This document shows, piece after piece, positions 22,326 through 30,095 of a stretch of DNA of 64,000 nucleotides. The notes below the pieces were generated by a model. It ran no database searches. It was given only the letters and a program-made list of their open reading frames with translations, and had not been told where the DNA came from. Position 1 is the stretch's first letter, and each line of letters begins with the position of its first letter. The position numbers were made by a program, and so were the translations under genes. The DNA is from Bacteroidota bacterium (GTDB taxonomy: Bacteria; Bacteroidota; Bacteroidia; 2-12-FULL-35-15): positions 496,001 to 560,000 of the forward strand of contig JAQZBR010000002.1 of assembly GCA_029237775.1 (NCBI GenBank), written 5' to 3'.

Positions 22326-22358
22326 AAAAAATCCCCGCTGAATAGCGGGGATTTTTTT
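22324..22358 (+). terminator. Bidirectional terminator between convergent genes
   Basis: AAAAAAA-ATCCCCGCT-GAAT-AGCGGGGAT-TTTTTT: a 9-bp stem (22331-22339 and 22344-22352) flanked by an A-run and a T-run, so it can work on both strands. It ends the helical-protein gene (plus) and overlaps the stop codon of the M48 peptidase gene (minus). Confidence 0.9.
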
Positions 22359-23160
22359 ATTGTTTTTTATAATATTTCATTGCTTCCGGAAGAATGGCTT
22401 TTATATCTGAGATCCTTGTCGCGTCACTCGGGTGAGTGCTTAAAAGCTCAATTGGCTGCTCCCCTCCTTTTGCTGCCATTCGTTGCCAGAAACTAACAGC
22501 TACATTCGGATCATATCCTGCCATTGCAGAGAACACCAGGCCCATTTTATCAGCTTCACTCTCATGAGTGCGTGAATATTTCAACATTCCAAGCTGAGAA
22601 GTAATACCATACGACTGAAGAAATAAGTTTTGCGTTGCTTCCGGCTTTTGAGAAACTGCAATTGCAACTCCAACTCCAATTCCTTGCACGATCATTGCCT
22701 GGCTCATACGCTCATTACCATGACGGGCAACCGCATGTGCAATTTCATGCCCCATTACAATTGCCAGGCTCGCTTCATCCTGCGTTACAGGCAGTAAGCC
22801 TGTGTACACAACGACTTTACCTCCAGGCATGCACCAGGCATTAACTTCAGGAGCATCTACTGTGTTGAACTCCCATTTATAACCATTCAGATTCTTGCTT
22901 AAACCTTTATCCTTCATGAATTTGGTCACCGCATTCTGAATCTTGACCCCGACATTCTTAACCATGGAAGCACGAGGATCGGAAGCCGGCAACGGTGGAT
23001 GCTGAGAAAGGAATTTCTGGTATTCACTCATGCTCATGTTTACCAATTCGCCTTCATTAACTAAACTTACTTGCTTTCTTCCGGTTAAAGGCACTTTCTC
23101 TGTACATGAATTAACAGAAACTGTTATCAAAAGGCCTATTAGAATGTGTTTAATTTTCAT
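22357..23160 (-). CDS. M48 family metallopeptidase lipoprotein
   Basis: The 267-aa protein has a lipoprotein signal (VSVNSC, Cys19). The zinc site HEIAH is at 138-142 (VMGHEIAHAVARHGNERM) and the third ligand is in HESEADKMG about 60 residues later. This fits periplasmic Oma1/LoiP/YcaL-type proteases that cut or check outer-membrane and lipid-associated proteins. A GMLKYSRTHESEAD stretch is typical. The gene is 82 bp downstream of clpS but separated from it by a terminator. Confidence 0.92.
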   Translation of the reverse strand: MKIKHILIGLLITVSVNSCTEKVPLTGRKQVSLVNEGELVNMSMSEYQKFLSQHPPLPASDPRASMVKNVGVKIQNAVTKFMKDKGLSKNLNGYKWEFNTVDAPEVNAWCMPGGKVVVYTGLLPVTQDEASLAIVMGHEIAHAVARHGNERMSQAMIVQGIGVGVAIAVSQKPEATQNLFLQSYGITSQLGMLKYSRTHESEADKMGLVFSAMAGYDPNVAVSFWQRMAAKGGEQPIELLSTHPSDATRISDIKAILPEAMKYYKKQ

Positions 23161-23242: not shown

Positions 23243-23542
23243 TCACTCTATTTCGGCTGTGATCCCGCGTTCCAGCAAAGCTGTGCACATTGGTTCAAGC
23301 TCCTCGTAGGAACCCCGCTTCACTGAACATTTTCCTTTATAATGTATTAAAAAGGTGCATTGTTCTGCTTGCACGGGATCATGTTTACAAACCTTAATAA
23401 GGGATTCTATCACAAAATCAAATGTATTGAAATCGTCATTATACACGATCAGCTGCTGCTGATCTACAGACACTTCATCGGGAGCCAGAAGAATATCTGT
23501 ATCTACGTCCAGTTCATGTTCCTTATCGAAATCGCGGATCAT
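23243..23542 (-). CDS. clpS: ATP-dependent Clp protease adaptor ClpS
   Basis: The 99-aa adaptor hands N-degron substrates to ClpAP-type proteases. The LIVYNDDFNTFDFVIESL stretch is the family signature, including the Asn-Asp-Asp near the N-degron pocket, and a C-terminal ELEPMCTALLERGITAEIE segment completes it. I chose the ATG at 23542, two bases after the stop of the giant gene, rather than an upstream in-frame ATG (23572) that would overlap that gene by 29 bp. It seems to be the last gene of the giant gene's transcript. Confidence 0.92.
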   Translation of the reverse strand: MIRDFDKEHELDVDTDILLAPDEVSVDQQQLIVYNDDFNTFDFVIESLIKVCKHDPVQAEQCTFLIHYKGKCSVKRGSYEELEPMCTALLERGITAEIE

Positions 23543-23543
23543 G

Positions 23544-26500
23544 TTATTTATTTTGTAAAGATTTTGCTTCATCGATACTGATTTTATTGCCGTTATTATA
23601 TGCTACTACGAAGGCATCACTAACCACTCCGGCAATCTCTGCTTTCAAAGATGATGCTTGCTCGTATGAAGTAAAACTACCGAGGGTATAAATTGTTAAT
23701 CCGTTAGGATCCTTATAATTTTTAATGCCTTTATTCGCAATCTTTAAGAACTGGTTGGCGATTGATAAAGGAACCTCATCCTTGAAAGCACCGATCTGCA
23801 CCTTGTAAACGACACCTGAATCCGAAACTGCATTATTGATTTCTAATGTGGTTTTCAGTTCAGTATTTGTTGAAGGTTGGGTGTTTGTTTCGGGTGAAGT
23901 TTGATCAGATGTAGATTCAGCATTATTATTTAATGCCGTTACTGCGGTTTCTTTTTTGTTGTCAACCTGAATACTCATATTTGCATTGTTGCCGTTCAAA
24001 GAAGGCAACTGATTCATACTGCTAGTGGTTGCAAACACAGAGTTTCCCTGCGCCTCTAATGTTCTTGCCTCAGGAAGCGTAATGCGTTTTCCCTGATAAT
24101 ATGCTGTTACAAATGCGTCTTTCACTCCTGCTGCAGCAATAACATTCCGGGCCTCCACCGCCTTGCCAAAATTATTATAGATGCCTGTATTGTATCTGAT
24201 CTTCCCATTCGGCAAATTCTCAGATAACAGAGGTTGTATATTGAACAATTTCGCTGAGGTCATTGGTTGTGAATATACCCCAACCTGCACTGTGTAGAGC
24301 AATCCGCTGACAGTCGAAATATTTTCTGCTTTGGCAATTTCGTTAGCGTTGACAGATTGATCATTTCCTTTATCCGGACTTGCTGAATTGACAGCAGTAT
24401 TTGTTTTAGTTACCCCTTCCTGAGTTGAATTATTGTTTGAAGTTTCTGCAGTAACCGCCAGATCCGGATTTTCACCCTGAAGCTTTAAGGCTTCTGCCAC
24501 AGAAATTCTTTTCCCATTAAGGAATACAACGACAAATGCATCCTTATACCCTAGTTGTCTGATCTCATTCTTCACCTGATCTGCAGTGCTGAATTTCGTG
24601 AACAAACCTGCCGTGTAACGTGTGAATCCTTGCGTAGTTGTTTCGGCTGTTATTGGACTCATTCCATTGAACTGCTCAGGAGCGATCGGATTACGGAATG
24701 CTCCGATCTGAACTTTGTAGATCAAGCCTTCAGGTAACTTTTCATTAACCGGAATTGGCTTTGATGACGAGTAAGTTGCTTGCGGTGTTCTCTCGAACTT
24801 TTCAGAAGGTGCTAATACTACCTGAGTTTGATTCTTTGCAGTATTACTTTCGGTCGACTTGTTTTCAGAGGCAACCTTTCCTGTTGTATTCTCAGGCGGA
24901 TTAACATTGCCGGCAGTAACGTCAGTAGATTTAACAGCTGCATCATTTGTTTCCGATGTCTTGTTTTCTGCATTTGCAATGTTGTCCGTATTCGTTTCAG
25001 ATGATTTCTGAGTATTATCAGCGATAGCATTGTTATCTGAATTGGTTTTATCAGGAGCTTCAGTATTAGTAGAAGCATTCTGATCTATTGCTGTTGACTT
25101 GGAATTATCAACTATTGAAGATTGGTCATTCTTAGTTGAATTATCCGTAACTTTTATCTGATCATTACCACTATTATTTTCTGCTGAATTGGTATTAGTC
25201 TCATTTGCGGACTGATCAGCAGATTTCATCACATTACCGGCATCGGTTGTCTGATCAGATTTTGCAATGTCCTTATTGTTAGAATTTTCATTGCCTGAAT
25301 TCGGGTTTGATACCTTATCAGTGCTTGCTGATGATTTATTCCCAGATGTTTTATCCGGGTTAGCAGCAAGCCCGGAAGAAGCATCATTTGTATTTACGGC
25401 AACAAAATCGGGATTAGCTTTCTGGTAAATTGCTGTCGCCTTGCGTTGTTTTTCAAGTGCTATCTTTTCATTGTTATTCGCATCCTCAAGTGCTGCAAGC
25501 TTATCTGTGTTTGTTCTCATCCCGGGAATCATATCACGGGACTTTTGAGCTTTTTCGAAATAAAGATTTGATTCATCCTTCATCATCTCAGCCATGGCAA
25601 CTTCATCGGACTTGTTTGAAGCAGAAACAACGACTAATTGATCGAGAACATTCTTATTTGCTAAGAACTCTGACTTGGCAGCATCGCTCGACAGCTGAGC
25701 CGCATTTATTTGTTTTTCTTCAGCCTGTGCACTCAGGTTGTTCGCTTTGATGAATAATGCATCTTTTTCTTTCTGGTCTGGCTTACTCGCAGCCTCTTCT
25801 TTCAAAGCTTTGGATTGCGCGATAAGGTCATCTGCAGCTTTACTATCTGAAGCTGCGGCATTTGCCTTGTCAATTGCAACCGGATTAGTATAAACCTGCG
25901 AAGTTGTACTCAGATTATTATTGGTGATCGGGGATCTTTTTCCAGATTGGGAATTATCTTCGGAAATATTTGTATTGTTTTCTGCAGCGCTGTTTTCATT
26001 AGATGATGCAGATTTATTCTGGTTAACCGCAAGGGCACTTTCTTCTATTGATTTTATTTTTGCCTGGGAGTTATCTAAAAGCTTTTGTTTTTCAGCTACA
26101 TCAGATTGCATAGCCGTAATCTCAGTAGACAATTGATTCTTCCTTGCCTCATCCTTTTCCTGAACAAAATTTTTCTGTATTGAACCGATCTGCTCTTTCA
26201 TTCCGGAAATATATTCCTGATAAGCCACAGCCTTCTTTTCTTCTCTCGCGAGATCTGTCTCTTCGTTTTCTGCTGTATTAACTCCGGCATTTAACTTTTG
26301 GTTAAGGTCGGCTTTAACAGCGTTATTCGCAATTGCATTAGTAGCGACATTTCCATTTCCTGAATCAGTAAAAGACGAATTATTACTTACTGCAGAATTA
26401 TTATCCTGGGAACTATTTTCAGACTTATTATCTGATGAGCTCTTATCTGAACTGCTCTCAGAAGTTTTATTTCCATTGTTAACTGCTAAACCGGATTCCT

Positions 26501-29500
26501 GTTGTTTCAAAGTTGCAGCCTTATCTGCACTTGCTACTGACTGATCCGCTTTCTCCTTCATCAGAGTTTCTGCATCAGCTATTTTTTTTACAAGTAAGGC
26601 TTTCATTTCAGGATCAGTGCTTGCGGCCATGTCCTGCTTTTGCTTTTCTACATTTTCATTAATAGCCGCAGACCAATCCTTAAAAATCTCGGATTTTTTA
26701 CTTTCCCGATCTGCTGCACTCGTAATACTTGCGGTCTCAGAAAGCTTATTATTAAAAGATTCATTGATAGAACTAATACTCGCGGTTGAAGGACTTTCAG
26801 ATGCATTTACAGAAGACGAGTTATTCTCCGCTTGATTATCATTTTTTGCAGCTATAGCATTTGAAGAGGCTTTCAGATTTTCAGCACTTGCGATGGATGC
26901 CTTTTCGAGATCCTGTTTTGCTTTTAATTCACTTTCAAGTGTGGAGATTTCCGCAGCAAGCTCTTTTTTCCTTGTTTTATTTTTTTCAGTTTTAAGGGCA
27001 TCCTGTTTTTTGCTCAGGTCTTCATTAAGCGTTGAAACCCAATTGGAATAAAGTTCAGCTTTCTTGTTCTCTTTTACTAAAGGATCTGAAATGTTATCAG
27101 TTGCAGCTAACTGATCTGTATATTGTTTTGAATAATCTAACCCGCTTTCAGCCACAATCGCTGTATTCGGATTCCCTGCATTTAAATTCTCCGCTTTAGA
27201 CGCATTGTCGGTCGAGTTCCCTGAATTTGTCTTAACGGTTCCCTGAGAACTGTTACTATTAACCGCTAGATCGTTTCCATTATCTCCGCTTGTATTCTTT
27301 GTTTCCGTGGAGTTTTGATTGCCGGCCTCGTTTGAATTCTGAGAGTTATTATTTGAGGCAACATCATTTGATTTGTTATCACCGTTATTATTTGTCTTGG
27401 ATGAACTTTCATTAATACCCTTCTGAGCATTTGTATTTGCGGCTACGTCATTGCCCTTGTCATTACCTGCAGTAACTTCAGGAGAATTAGCAGTTCCGTT
27501 CTTATTAGCGTTTGAATTTGATTGCCCGGCTTCGGTTTTCGATGAGGATGCTATATCATTGGTGGCTTTATTTTCGCTGTTACTATCAGACTGAGCGGTT
27601 CCGGAATTCGTTGTATTTTTTGCAATTGTTGGGGTCACAGGACTTCGGTCAATCCCTGTCTTCAGATCATTTACCTGCTGTTCAAGTTTCGTTTTATCTA
27701 TTGATGCAACGCTGGCAGCAGCAGCTTCATTCGTTCCGGTTTTAGCTTTATCAACAACGTTGCTGACAAGCTCCATTTCATTTTTAATTCCATTGAACTC
27801 TTTTGTAAGTTTCGCAACTTTAAGATCGTTAGATTCAAGGTCTTTACGGCTTTGCTCGTTATCAGCTTTCAGACCTTCTATCTGATCAAGCAATCCTTTT
27901 TTGAGATCGTCCTTTTTCGTCTTTTCCGCATCAACAGCTAATGTGGTGATCAGAGTTTCATTGTCGGCAATTTCCTGTTTAATGTCTTCGGAAGTCTGTG
28001 TAGCTTTATCAAGCTCACGCTTTTTTGTTTCAGAATCCATTTTTAAACCTGCGTAAATATTATCAGGCTCTGCATTCCCGTTTTTTTGACTCAGCTCTTC
28101 AAGCTTCTCTTCCTGCTGTTTTAATTTTTCAAGCGCTTCGCCAGGATTTTTAGACTTAACGGCAGCCTCAAGCGCTTTTGCGTATTGCATCGCAAGATCC
28201 GCTTCTTCATCTTTAGCAACCGCTTTCTGTTGTAATTTTTTCGCAATGTTAAAAGCTGCTACAGTTTCCTGATTAAGAGTTTCTGATTCTTCCCGGGCCT
28301 GAGTAGCCTCATCCAGTGCAGTTTGCTTCTTAACATTATCGGTCATGCTGTTCGCATCCGACATTAATTGCGCTGCTTCCTGGGTCTTATTCTGAGCCAG
28401 CTCGTTTTTCTGATTTGCCAGGTTTAAAGCAATATCAGCCTGCTCCTGCAGATCCTTTGCTTCTGTTTCAGCTTCTTTTGCATCATCATATGCAATTTTC
28501 ACGATAGCATCATTACTCAAGCTAGCTCCGGAAGGAGTGGATTTACTGTTATCACCTGTTTTATTATCCCCGGCCTTTTCAGTATTGTTTGCAGTGGAAT
28601 TGTTGTTTCCTTCATCAGCACTCGCATTATTTTTAGCGGCAGCAGCAGCATTTGCGGCATCAACACCCGCTTCCATCCTCGCTTTTTCTTTAATGAAATT
28701 AAGAGCAAGCAGGTAACTCTGATCATCAACAGGCTCATCAAATAAATTTTTAATGATCAGCTTGTCTGTTCCTTTTTCATAACTTATTTCCTGCTTTAAG
28801 GGCTTAAATTCATATTGAGTTGGAAGCACTACGATCTCCGACTGAGTATTAAAGCCTGTCGCTTCCACAGTGTACATGAACTTACCTCCATTTGGAAGAT
28901 TGATCAGATAATTCCCCGTTTCCTTTGCGTTATACATTCCTAAAATTGTATTATCGGCAAGGTCTTTAACAGTGATCTTCACATCAAGCGCCTGATCATC
29001 CTTTGTTTTAACCACCATACCCTTTACGATCGCCACATCAATAGGCCTGCGTTCCACATTTATGTGAAACACCGCTGTCTTACCCGTTTTACTTGAACGC
29101 GCAGAAGAAAAGAAAGCTTCCTTCTCGTCTTCATTTGTTACATAAAGGATATCGTCATCAGGAGTGTTGATCGGGAAATCGAGGTTGACAGGCTTGTTCC
29201 AGGTATTAGTTTCTTCATTAAGAGTTGTTTTGAAGATATCATACCCACCCATTGAGTTATGGCCTTTGGAGCAGAAATACAAAACTTTCCCGTTCGGATG
29301 AAGAAAGGGATAATCTTCATCGTATTCTGTGTTTACCGGATAACCAAGCGTTTGCGGCTTGCTCCATTCACCGGTAGGAAGCTTTCGGATGATGTAAATA
29401 TCTTTTCCGTGTTCCAGGTCATCACCAAAGCTTGAAAAATAAACCTGGTTATTATTTGTTGCGAGATAGATAATGGACTTTTCCTTTTTCTTCTTATCAA

Positions 29501-30095
29501 GTGGAGTACGGAAAGATTCTTCGTCCGGCTTCGCGAGCAGCTTTCCGCCAATATCGGAAATATCATATGCACGGTAGAAATCTGTACGACTTAATTCTTT
29601 CTTATCAATTACAATGAGATCGGTGATATTTCTCAAAAGCTTTTTACCACTTGTACACATTTCAATCTGATGATCAACCTGAAGCTTATTGGATTTGGCT
29701 TCAGAAGCGACCCTCGAATAAGCAAGGTATTTAGCGATCGCATCGTCAAAACGATAATTGAGATGGTAGGCTTTTGCAAGATAAAAGAAAACTTCTTTTT
29801 CAACATCAGGTTTTGTAGCTGCGAATTCCAGAAACGGAATAGCTTTTTCCTTGTCATCGCTTGCGTAAAGCATACACACTCCAAGGCGGTAGTTATAATT
29901 GGGATCTTTAGGATAAAGGCTGGCTAGCTGTGAATATAAGGGGTAGGCCTCTTCAAACTCATCGTCTTCAAAAAGCTTCAGGGCCTGTTGCTTCAATTCA
30001 TCTTCAGATGCGAATGCAGCCTGTGAAAATACTGGACGGAAGCCCGACATAATCACAAGCAGAAACAGAAAAACAAACCTTAATTGCTTATTCAT
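23544..30095 (-). CDS. Giant envelope protein: TPR, PD40 propeller, CPR domain, coiled coils, three SPOR-like domains
   Basis: The protein has 2183 residues from the ATG at 30095; an in-frame upstream ATG at 30200 would precede the signal peptide by 35 residues and translate a palindrome, so it is unlikely. Order of parts: signal peptide 1-25 (ending PVFSQ); TPRs about 30-150; PD40/WD40-like propeller repeats about 180-345 (GKDIYIIRKLPTGEWSKPQ, MGGYDIFKTT); CPR sandwich about 350-430; helical segment about 520-700; three related helical modules of about 75 residues (about 1000-1075, 1125-1200, 1275-1355) with Asn/Ser/Gly-rich linkers; another helical segment about 1390-1560; three SPOR-like domains (about 1787-1870, 1930-2015, 2090-2180), each opening with YKVQIGAF or YTVQVGVY. 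The N-terminal order matches T9SS-associated PorE-type proteins, which end in OmpA; here SPOR-like units stand in that place. Confidence 0.88.
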   Translation of the reverse strand: MNKQLRFVFLFLLVIMSGFRPVFSQAAFASEDELKQQALKLFEDDEFEEAYPLYSQLASLYPKDPNYNYRLGVCMLYASDDKEKAIPFLEFAATKPDVEKEVFFYLAKAYHLNYRFDDAIAKYLAYSRVASEAKSNKLQVDHQIEMCTSGKKLLRNITDLIVIDKKELSRTDFYRAYDISDIGGKLLAKPDEESFRTPLDKKKKEKSIIYLATNNNQVYFSSFGDDLEHGKDIYIIRKLPTGEWSKPQTLGYPVNTEYDEDYPFLHPNGKVLYFCSKGHNSMGGYDIFKTTLNEETNTWNKPVNLDFPINTPDDDILYVTNEDEKEAFFSSARSSKTGKTAVFHINVERRPIDVAIVKGMVVKTKDDQALDVKITVKDLADNTILGMYNAKETGNYLINLPNGGKFMYTVEATGFNTQSEIVVLPTQYEFKPLKQEISYEKGTDKLIIKNLFDEPVDDQSYLLALNFIKEKARMEAGVDAANAAAAAKNNASADEGNNNSTANNTEKAGDNKTGDNSKSTPSGASLSNDAIVKIAYDDAKEAETEAKDLQEQADIALNLANQKNELAQNKTQEAAQLMSDANSMTDNVKKQTALDEATQAREESETLNQETVAAFNIAKKLQQKAVAKDEEADLAMQYAKALEAAVKSKNPGEALEKLKQQEEKLEELSQKNGNAEPDNIYAGLKMDSETKKRELDKATQTSEDIKQEIADNETLITTLAVDAEKTKKDDLKKGLLDQIEGLKADNEQSRKDLESNDLKVAKLTKEFNGIKNEMELVSNVVDKAKTGTNEAAAASVASIDKTKLEQQVNDLKTGIDRSPVTPTIAKNTTNSGTAQSDSNSENKATNDIASSSKTEAGQSNSNANKNGTANSPEVTAGNDKGNDVAANTNAQKGINESSSKTNNNGDNKSNDVASNNNSQNSNEAGNQNSTETKNTSGDNGNDLAVNSNSSQGTVKTNSGNSTDNASKAENLNAGNPNTAIVAESGLDYSKQYTDQLAATDNISDPLVKENKKAELYSNWVSTLNEDLSKKQDALKTEKNKTRKKELAAEISTLESELKAKQDLEKASIASAENLKASSNAIAAKNDNQAENNSSSVNASESPSTASISSINESFNNKLSETASITSAADRESKKSEIFKDWSAAINENVEKQKQDMAASTDPEMKALLVKKIADAETLMKEKADQSVASADKAATLKQQESGLAVNNGNKTSESSSDKSSSDNKSENSSQDNNSAVSNNSSFTDSGNGNVATNAIANNAVKADLNQKLNAGVNTAENEETDLAREEKKAVAYQEYISGMKEQIGSIQKNFVQEKDEARKNQLSTEITAMQSDVAEKQKLLDNSQAKIKSIEESALAVNQNKSASSNENSAAENNTNISEDNSQSGKRSPITNNNLSTTSQVYTNPVAIDKANAAASDSKAADDLIAQSKALKEEAASKPDQKEKDALFIKANNLSAQAEEKQINAAQLSSDAAKSEFLANKNVLDQLVVVSASNKSDEVAMAEMMKDESNLYFEKAQKSRDMIPGMRTNTDKLAALEDANNNEKIALEKQRKATAIYQKANPDFVAVNTNDASSGLAANPDKTSGNKSSASTDKVSNPNSGNENSNNKDIAKSDQTTDAGNVMKSADQSANETNTNSAENNSGNDQIKVTDNSTKNDQSSIVDNSKSTAIDQNASTNTEAPDKTNSDNNAIADNTQKSSETNTDNIANAENKTSETNDAAVKSTDVTAGNVNPPENTTGKVASENKSTESNTAKNQTQVVLAPSEKFERTPQATYSSSKPIPVNEKLPEGLIYKVQIGAFRNPIAPEQFNGMSPITAETTTQGFTRYTAGLFTKFSTADQVKNEIRQLGYKDAFVVVFLNGKRISVAEALKLQGENPDLAVTAETSNNNSTQEGVTKTNTAVNSASPDKGNDQSVNANEIAKAENISTVSGLLYTVQVGVYSQPMTSAKLFNIQPLLSENLPNGKIRYNTGIYNNFGKAVEARNVIAAAGVKDAFVTAYYQGKRITLPEARTLEAQGNSVFATTSSMNQLPSLNGNNANMSIQVDNKKETAVTALNNNAESTSDQTSPETNTQPSTNTELKTTLEINNAVSDSGVVYKVQIGAFKDEVPLSIANQFLKIANKGIKNYKDPNGLTIYTLGSFTSYEQASSLKAEIAGVVSDAFVVAYNNGNKISIDEAKSLQNK
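26030..27100 (-). repeat. Three coding repeats of a helical module in the giant protein
   Basis: Modules at about 27100-26870, 26725-26500 and 26275-26030 encode similar ~75-residue charged helical hairpins. Each opens with a KKxE/A-x-Y/F-x-x-W/Y pattern (ENKKAELYSNW, ESKKSEIFKDW, EEKKAVAYQEY) and ends near AxxxxAS. They are joined by Asn/Ser/Gly-rich linkers and have diverged at the DNA level. Confidence 0.7.

Follow-up and report, generated by a model that had tools for sequence, protein, structure and literature searches.

A 64,000-nucleotide stretch of a Bacteroidota genome (contig JAQZBR010000002.1, positions 496,001 to 560,000; hereafter the window) encodes a giant exported protein of 2183 residues, in which a head of TPR, beta-propeller and sandwich domains is joined to a tail of three SPOR units through a long series of helical stretches and linkers. 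This architecture is real and conserved, and both of its ends are of known kinds; our searches of the open-licence PubMed Central literature gave no description of the plan as a whole. The most economical reading, to which we give about an even chance, is that of a scaffold in the periplasm that links a partner in the envelope with peptidoglycan stripped of its stem peptides, mainly at the septum.

Domain plan and conservation

The reading frame of the giant protein runs on the reverse strand from an ATG at 30095 to a stop codon at 23544-23546, within a mechanical open reading frame (ORF) that extends to 30200. An initial annotation, made from the sequence alone, had placed a signal peptide, TPR, PD40 and CPR domains, linkers and SPOR domains in this order; the order is borne out, with CPR by fold alone, and the plan is conserved in orthologues. 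The features, with positions in the window, are as follows.

23544-30095, minus strand: whole gene, exported protein of 2183 amino acids with an N-terminal signal peptide and, by eye, no lipobox
30024-30095, minus strand: signal peptide, residues 1-24, by eye, with no Cys near the cleavage site
29616-30017, minus strand: TPR superhelix, residues 27-160 (head profile, model and structure comparison)
29421-29690, minus strand: TPR-to-propeller segment, residues 136-225, the family-specific marker (alignment A2)
29049-29570, minus strand: PD40 / TolB-like beta-propeller, residues 176-349 (Pfam, model and structure comparison)
28731-29045, minus strand: CPR-like (transthyretin/CnaB-like) beta-sandwich, residues 351-455 (predicted fold)
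27651-28514, minus strand: first long-helix region, residues 528-815 (composition and model)
26892-27128, minus strand: helical module a, residues 990-1068 (composition table and module profile)
26529-26765, minus strand: helical module b, residues 1111-1189 (composition table and module profile)
26061-26303, minus strand: helical module c, residues 1265-1345 (composition table and module profile)
25401-25877, minus strand: second helical region, residues 1407-1565 (composition; model from residue 1470)
24825-25385, minus strand: Asn/Ser/Thr-rich linker, residues 1571-1757, the longest low-confidence one in two models
24477-24743, minus strand: SPOR unit 1, residues 1785-1873, Gln and Arg contacts present
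24057-24347, minus strand: SPOR unit 2, residues 1917-2013, Gln and Arg contacts present
23547-23867, minus strand: SPOR unit 3, residues 2077-2183, Gln present, Ile at the Arg position

The presence of three SPOR units at the C-terminus, in the place of an OmpA domain, was confirmed. Pfam SPOR (PF05036) passes its cut-off in the giant protein (3.4e-5, 24.5 bits against a cut-off of 21) over two stretches, the best being residues 1793-1856, and a profile of distant units matches three, at residues 1773-1873, 1914-2013 and 2080-2182 (1e-37, 5e-32 and 1e-29). The latter profile was built from 36 units of 12 distant loci with the window's sequence excluded, the units having been chosen with a first profile that included it. 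This first profile was made from the C-terminal 110 residues of 27 proteins, including that of the window, and matches their unit 3 by construction; its matches to units 1 and 2 and to three other loci (L098, L101 and L110) are independent of how it was made, and none of 500 shuffled versions of the C-terminus matched it at E up to 10. A genome-wide search with OmpA (PF00691) gave 27 matches at E up to 0.01, none of them at the ORF of the giant protein (C11:519544-526095); an OmpA tail hidden in this ORF is rejected by that search together with the Pfam scan.

A model of the C-terminus (27 aligned rows) contains three compact units, with blocks at a confidence of 77 to 95 separated by stretches below 50. 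Foldseek placed the SPOR domain of CwlC at the top of its matches to this model, with DamX in second, DedD in fourth and FtsN in 38th place, but no match had an E value as low as 0.001. With VIA-align 2, matches to SPOR structures were listed for unit 3 alone (CwlC at Z 6.7, RlpA at Z 6.0-6.1), and units 1 and 2 have a similar order of elements. A sequence search of solved structures with the C-terminus returned one weak CwlC match (0.015) and two low-complexity matches. Because the structural scores are modest for small domains, the SPOR assignment is carried by the sequence evidence.

In RlpA, according to the available text of PMC6895207, the glycan is held by Q270 together with a basic cluster to which R309 belongs, and F274 makes a CH/pi contact; Q251 and R285 of FtsN are the equivalents of Q270 and R309. 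Of the RlpA contacts, which also include R302 and R311, we compared the Gln, the R309-type Arg and the F274 position across 28 rows, setting the Arg position by motif spacing rather than by superposition. Unit 1 has both the Gln and the Arg in 28/28 rows. Unit 2 has the Gln in 28/28 and the Arg in 25/28, with Lys in L104 and Val in L106 and L107. Unit 3 has the Gln in 24/28 and the Arg in 0/28, the position being taken by Ile (24 rows), Val (3) or Ser (1). The F274 position is aromatic in 26, 28 and 28 of the 28 rows for units 1, 2 and 3, respectively. Judged by their sequences, units 1 and 2 retain two known glycan-contact residues, unit 2 in those 25 rows.

Searching genome contigs with the head, we obtained 46 related loci, 31 of which have a stop-closed ORF. 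Besides the window's gene, 27 of these 31 ORFs carry three SPOR units, at head identities from 91 to 36%, giving 28 proteins in total; a far relative (G045) likewise has three. Two units are found in L098, one in L110, and none in L074, which is broken by Ns, or in L111 (581 amino acids), which is probably a paralogue. Both L074 and L111 are scored as misses in the 27/31 and left out of the 29-protein set used for the contact, lipobox and neighbour counts. By Pfam alone, SPOR falls under the cut-off in L110 and G045. The initial annotation had raised the prospect that orthologues end in OmpA and that this protein is a misassembly; the three-SPOR plan of the orthologue ORFs contradicts it, and misassembly is rejected by that recurrence and by the occurrence of the family marker across the order. 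With the same plan in other assemblies, a chimeric assembly or a chance resemblance has a vanishingly small probability.

The family marker has one match each in 34 of 36 genomes of the window's order, its own genome included; the two genomes without it are 76% and 64% complete, and all 26 of the 26 order genomes with ≥90% completeness and ≤5% contamination have it. By survey count the order is one genus, and the related-locus set and the order genome set share species. Within an even sample of 296 Bacteroidota, the marker occurs in at least 2 (the window's own genome and G045), a possible lower bound, as is the count of short relatives given below. The marker is a 90-residue segment, and the first scoring took in up to 17 candidates per listed genome for the marker and up to 5 for the short relatives. 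The giant protein is core in the window's order and patchy beyond it, reaching metagenome-assembled genomes titled Flavobacteriales and Bacteroidales. One locus labelled Candidatus Dependentiae (L103) was taken for a binning error. Related records numbered 5 in a plasmid collection and 1 in a phage collection, none of them covering as much as 80% of the head; among the plasmid records is the Bacteroides short relative described below.

In the head, PD40 is above the Pfam cut-off at residues 254-288 (5.9e-7) and TPR is under it; a head profile (alignment A1, 29 rows) matches TPR structures, with engineered ones ranking first. An AlphaFold2 model from 31 aligned rows, covering the head and the first helical part, has confidences of mostly 83-94 in the TPR blocks, 59-86 in the propeller and 72-91 in the sandwich, followed by long helices. 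When compared with this model by VIA-align 2, TPR structures score Z 12.6-14.4 and transthyretin-type sandwiches, at the CPR place, Z about 9-10; TolB entries align with the propeller over 128-145 residues at Z 9.1-10.8. Since there is no Pfam match to a CPR domain in the giant protein, CPR was assigned by predicted fold; in the model, this place is a transthyretin/CnaB-like sandwich.

Between head and tail, at residues about 476-1780, helical stretches alternate with linkers rich in Asn, Ser, Thr, Gly, Asp and Gln, in agreement with the stretch of linkers and helical modules, roughly 1300 residues long and Asn/Ser-rich in its linkers, that had been annotated ahead of the SPOR tail. With an iterated profile made from one module, between 0 and 6 copies were counted per protein in a set of 30; the giant protein of the window has 4, one of which is weak and lies within the first long-helix region. 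This leash thus varies in length, with both ends conserved; the three-SPOR ORFs measure 1662 to 2408 residues from stop to stop. Models span the protein except residues 871-1469, and the modelled linkers, with predicted local distance difference test (pLDDT) values below 50, are probably flexible. NCBIfam has no family for the giant protein, and the Pfam scan found no enzyme domain in it.

Possible functions at the cell envelope

Our combined findings suggest a Sec-exported, apparently non-lipidated periplasmic scaffold. Its TPR, propeller and CPR-like head would dock on a protein of the envelope that is probably located in, or associated with, the outer membrane, and its C-terminal SPOR domains, mainly units 1 and 2, would bind glycan strands stripped of stem peptides. 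Such denuded glycan is enriched at the division septum; SPOR domains bind it, whereas OmpA domains bind intact peptidoglycan. The helical modules and low-complexity linkers would form a long, length-variable leash, through which the head could reach its partner as the tail holds the changing septal wall. Glycan binding, the septal location and the outer-membrane partner are inferred. PorE and CHU_0125, both described below, are precedents for a head of this type on a wall-binding tail.

A tether to septal peptidoglycan had already been proposed in the initial annotation. The conserved long-leash plan and the two glycan contacts in units 1 and 2 agree with it, and the missing Arg in unit 3 does not. 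Several further points weigh against a septal scaffold. The one unit for which SPOR structures were listed by VIA-align 2, unit 3, is the unit without the Arg; its Z values are within a range common for models without a clear match, and an exported Burkholderia protein (6ozd, Z 7.3) scores above CwlC on it. No lipid anchor or barrel tying the giant protein to the outer membrane was found, and attachment to this membrane is purely conjectural. In addition, short relatives of the head have no Pfam SPOR domain (see below), and the head may thus do a job independent of the wall.

Among known SPOR proteins (RlpA, DamX, DedD, FtsN and CwlC), the giant protein shares the SPOR fold by model, as well as the Gln and one Arg in units 1 and 2, but differs in having three SPOR units behind a TPR/propeller head and no Pfam enzyme domain. 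This likeness raises the alternative of a divisome regulator of the FtsN/DamX type, with a septal SPOR tail and with a head and helical modules that act on wall enzymes, in which no outer-membrane link would be needed. Two observations are consistent with such a role: there are three SPOR units, of which units 1 and 2 carry known contact residues, and the marker has a single match in 34/36 genomes of the order. However, unlike in FtsN and DamX, no second hydrophobic stretch was seen by eye past the signal peptide in the composition table of the giant protein; its head resembles PorE/TolB-type envelope scaffolds; and the neighbour clusters looked at contained no gene that we recognised as a division gene. 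We consider a divisome regulator unlikely.

The propeller fold of the head is that of TolB, at the Z values given above. TolB is a separate protein that binds Pal, whereas the propeller here is within one long polypeptide. A more specific form of the periplasmic scaffold, which we regard as doubtful, is that one polypeptide does the septal job of Tol-Pal: the TolB-like head would hold an outer-membrane partner, the three SPOR units would read fresh denuded septal glycan, and the variable leash would allow the outer membrane of Bacteroidota to keep up with the wall as it closes. If the scaffold reading is right, the protein offers a handle on the coupling of the outer membrane to the dividing wall in this phylum. 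The single marker match per genome would allow clean deletion tests.

PorE, paralogues and type IX secretion

PorE of Porphyromonas gingivalis is described in the available text of PMC7192894 and PMC9143113 as a peptidoglycan-binding lipoprotein with OmpA_C at residues 534-668, and in that of PMC9143113 as binding the barrel PorP. The giant protein shares with it a periplasmic plan of TPR, propeller and CPR-like domain followed by a C-terminal domain of a peptidoglycan-binding type, a likeness judged by domain plan from these publications rather than by direct comparison with the PorE sequence. In contrast to PorE, it is 2183 amino acids long and has three SPOR units; no lipobox was seen by eye in it or in 29 other printed N-termini. 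Because it follows a PorE-like plan without two features that define PorE, the OmpA domain and the lipoprotein signal, we did not file it as PorE.

CHU_0125 of Cytophaga hutchinsonii, a TPR-PD40-OmpA protein needed for outer-membrane integrity according to the available text of PMC5891637, also combines a TPR and PD40 head with a tail of a wall-binding type. Its tail is OmpA, however, and the giant protein matches its model only at positions 280-491 of 639, with 86 bits as compared with 439 for the best match in the window's genome; none reaches the 620-bit cut-off. This genome (G000) has 39 matches to the CHU_0125 model (NF053607), none over the cut-off, and several of them may share one ORF. 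If the scaffold reading is right, the wall-reading end would differ among relatives, being OmpA in PorE and CHU_0125 and SPOR in the conserved giant protein.

In a tree of the TPR-propeller part, a branch with 100/100 support has the giant proteins together with short relatives of the Bacteroides type on one side and, on the other, 13 TPR-PD40 paralogues encoded in the window's genome, which are 13 of a larger number of matching PD40 paralogues; L074, L109, L111 and P. gingivalis PorE were left out. Five of these paralogues have OmpA over the cut-off, one has it below, two have SPOR-like tails and five have neither. Both SPOR-tailed ones (L017 and L014) fall among the paralogues, which places SPOR-like tails on two distinct branches. 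As this tree has no root, a gain of these tails is indistinguishable from a loss. Some placements are unsure because of long branches (L110, L022 and the stem of the short relatives, at 2.25), and G230 has an odd composition. Without the short relatives, the giant proteins need two changes on the tree, which does not show them as a single clade by themselves.

The initial annotation had also linked the protein to the type IX secretion system (T9SS). As a T9SS part, its head would bind a PorP/SprF-like barrel and its SPOR tail, in the place of OmpA, would fix a platform for secretion or adhesins to the wall. There is a precedent in PorE, which begins with these three domain types and binds PorP (PMC9143113, available text). 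SprA is present in 34/36 genomes of the order and in G045, PorP/SprF lies within the fetched flank in 9/46 loci, all close relatives of the window (the match in L076 being weak), the adjacent gene in L069 carries a T9SS type B domain, and the window itself encodes one T9SS type A and one type B substrate. Yet SprA is also found in 227 of the 296 genomes of the phylum sample and the marker in at least 2 of them, so we dropped the inference from co-occurrence. The PorP profile, built from eight close loci only, has no match in the window or in more distant loci, and SprA was not found in either of the sampled genomes with short relatives (G230 and G238) by the phylum-sample search. Together with the absence of a lipobox by eye, the separation from the 13 paralogues and recurrent neighbours that are not of the T9SS, this makes a T9SS part improbable in our view and leaves such a role unsupported.

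Gene neighbourhood and short relatives

The giant gene likely heads an operon with clpS and an M48 metalloprotease gene.

23243-23572, minus strand: clpS, next gene of the likely operon, with an internal ATG at 23542, one base past the stop of the giant gene
22357-23160, minus strand: M48 metalloprotease, third gene, BepA/LoiP-like but far under those equivalog cut-offs

A clpS match lies within about 200 bases after the giant gene in 23/29 loci. An M48 match follows it in 16/29, and two of the 13 loci without one have <1 kb downstream. Since ClpS is cytoplasmic, we take its neighbouring position as operon order rather than as shared function. The recurrent neighbours are clpS, the M48 protease, prmA, plsY and nfeD/floA, and a neighbour cluster may seem absent where a contig ends early. 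In 12 loci (L084, L088, L091, L093, L095, L096, L098, L101, L104, L105, L106 and L107), the gene for an exported protein of about 1490 amino acids, c6, is upstream of the giant gene. A PrmA-type gene is upstream of c6 in 10/10 of the c6 loci that cover this stretch, and a PlsY-type gene is between c6 and the giant gene in 8/12, these names coming from Pfam for the copies of the window's genome and by eye in the other loci. c6 belongs to no family in NCBIfam, and Pfam gave nothing for it under 0.001. At another place in the window's genome, prmA-c6-plsY is present without the giant gene; the c6 copy of this genome (L145:8527-13005, G000 C11) has 50% identity to that of L088 over nearly the whole length.

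The short relatives comprise a 474-residue TPR and PD40 protein of Bacteroides finegoldii and its relatives in at least two sampled genomes, G230 and G238, at 66% and 61% identity to it; none of the three has a Pfam SPOR match. They are 474-477 amino acids long and adjoin nfeD and floA in Bacteroides-type genomes (L144:2932-5884, L154:2678-6081 and L155:3643-6577). By Pfam, the next two genes in G230 are nfeD and floA, and in G238 floA is clear and nfeD just under the cut-off.

These genes bear on the alternative that the head has a house-keeping role in the periplasm, as a scaffold that organises membrane or lipids, and that the SPOR tail was added to it in particular lineages. The FloA flotillin, NfeD, PlsY and BepA/LoiP-like protease neighbours would suit such a scaffold: nfeD and floA adjoin the short relatives of G230, G238 and the B. 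finegoldii record; giant-type genes occur together with clpS and an nfeD-floA pair (named by eye) in L101 and L110; and PlsY-type genes precede the giant gene in the c6 loci counted above. Against this, the argument is one of gene neighbourhood alone and the neighbours vary by lineage, and we assign it a low probability.

Other proteins of the window's genome have SPOR-like tails. Two neighbours on contig C1, of 936 amino acids (L146:6661-9471; TPR-PD40-CPR with three SPOR-like units by family profile) and 659 amino acids (L146:9735-11714; TPR-PD40 with one such unit), both with Pfam SPOR below the cut-off, resemble the giant protein in carrying a SPOR-like tail on a PorE-like head, but they are short, and the tree places them with the paralogues rather than on the side of the giant proteins. 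On contig C8, a 779-residue protein (L147:4643-6982) has a weak DUF6089 match as well as TSP_3 and SPOR over the cut-off, with three SPOR units by family profile. It adjoins a 489-residue SPOR protein (L147:3105-4574) and a barrel protein with EF-hands, and with these neighbours it may form a barrel-to-septum tether.

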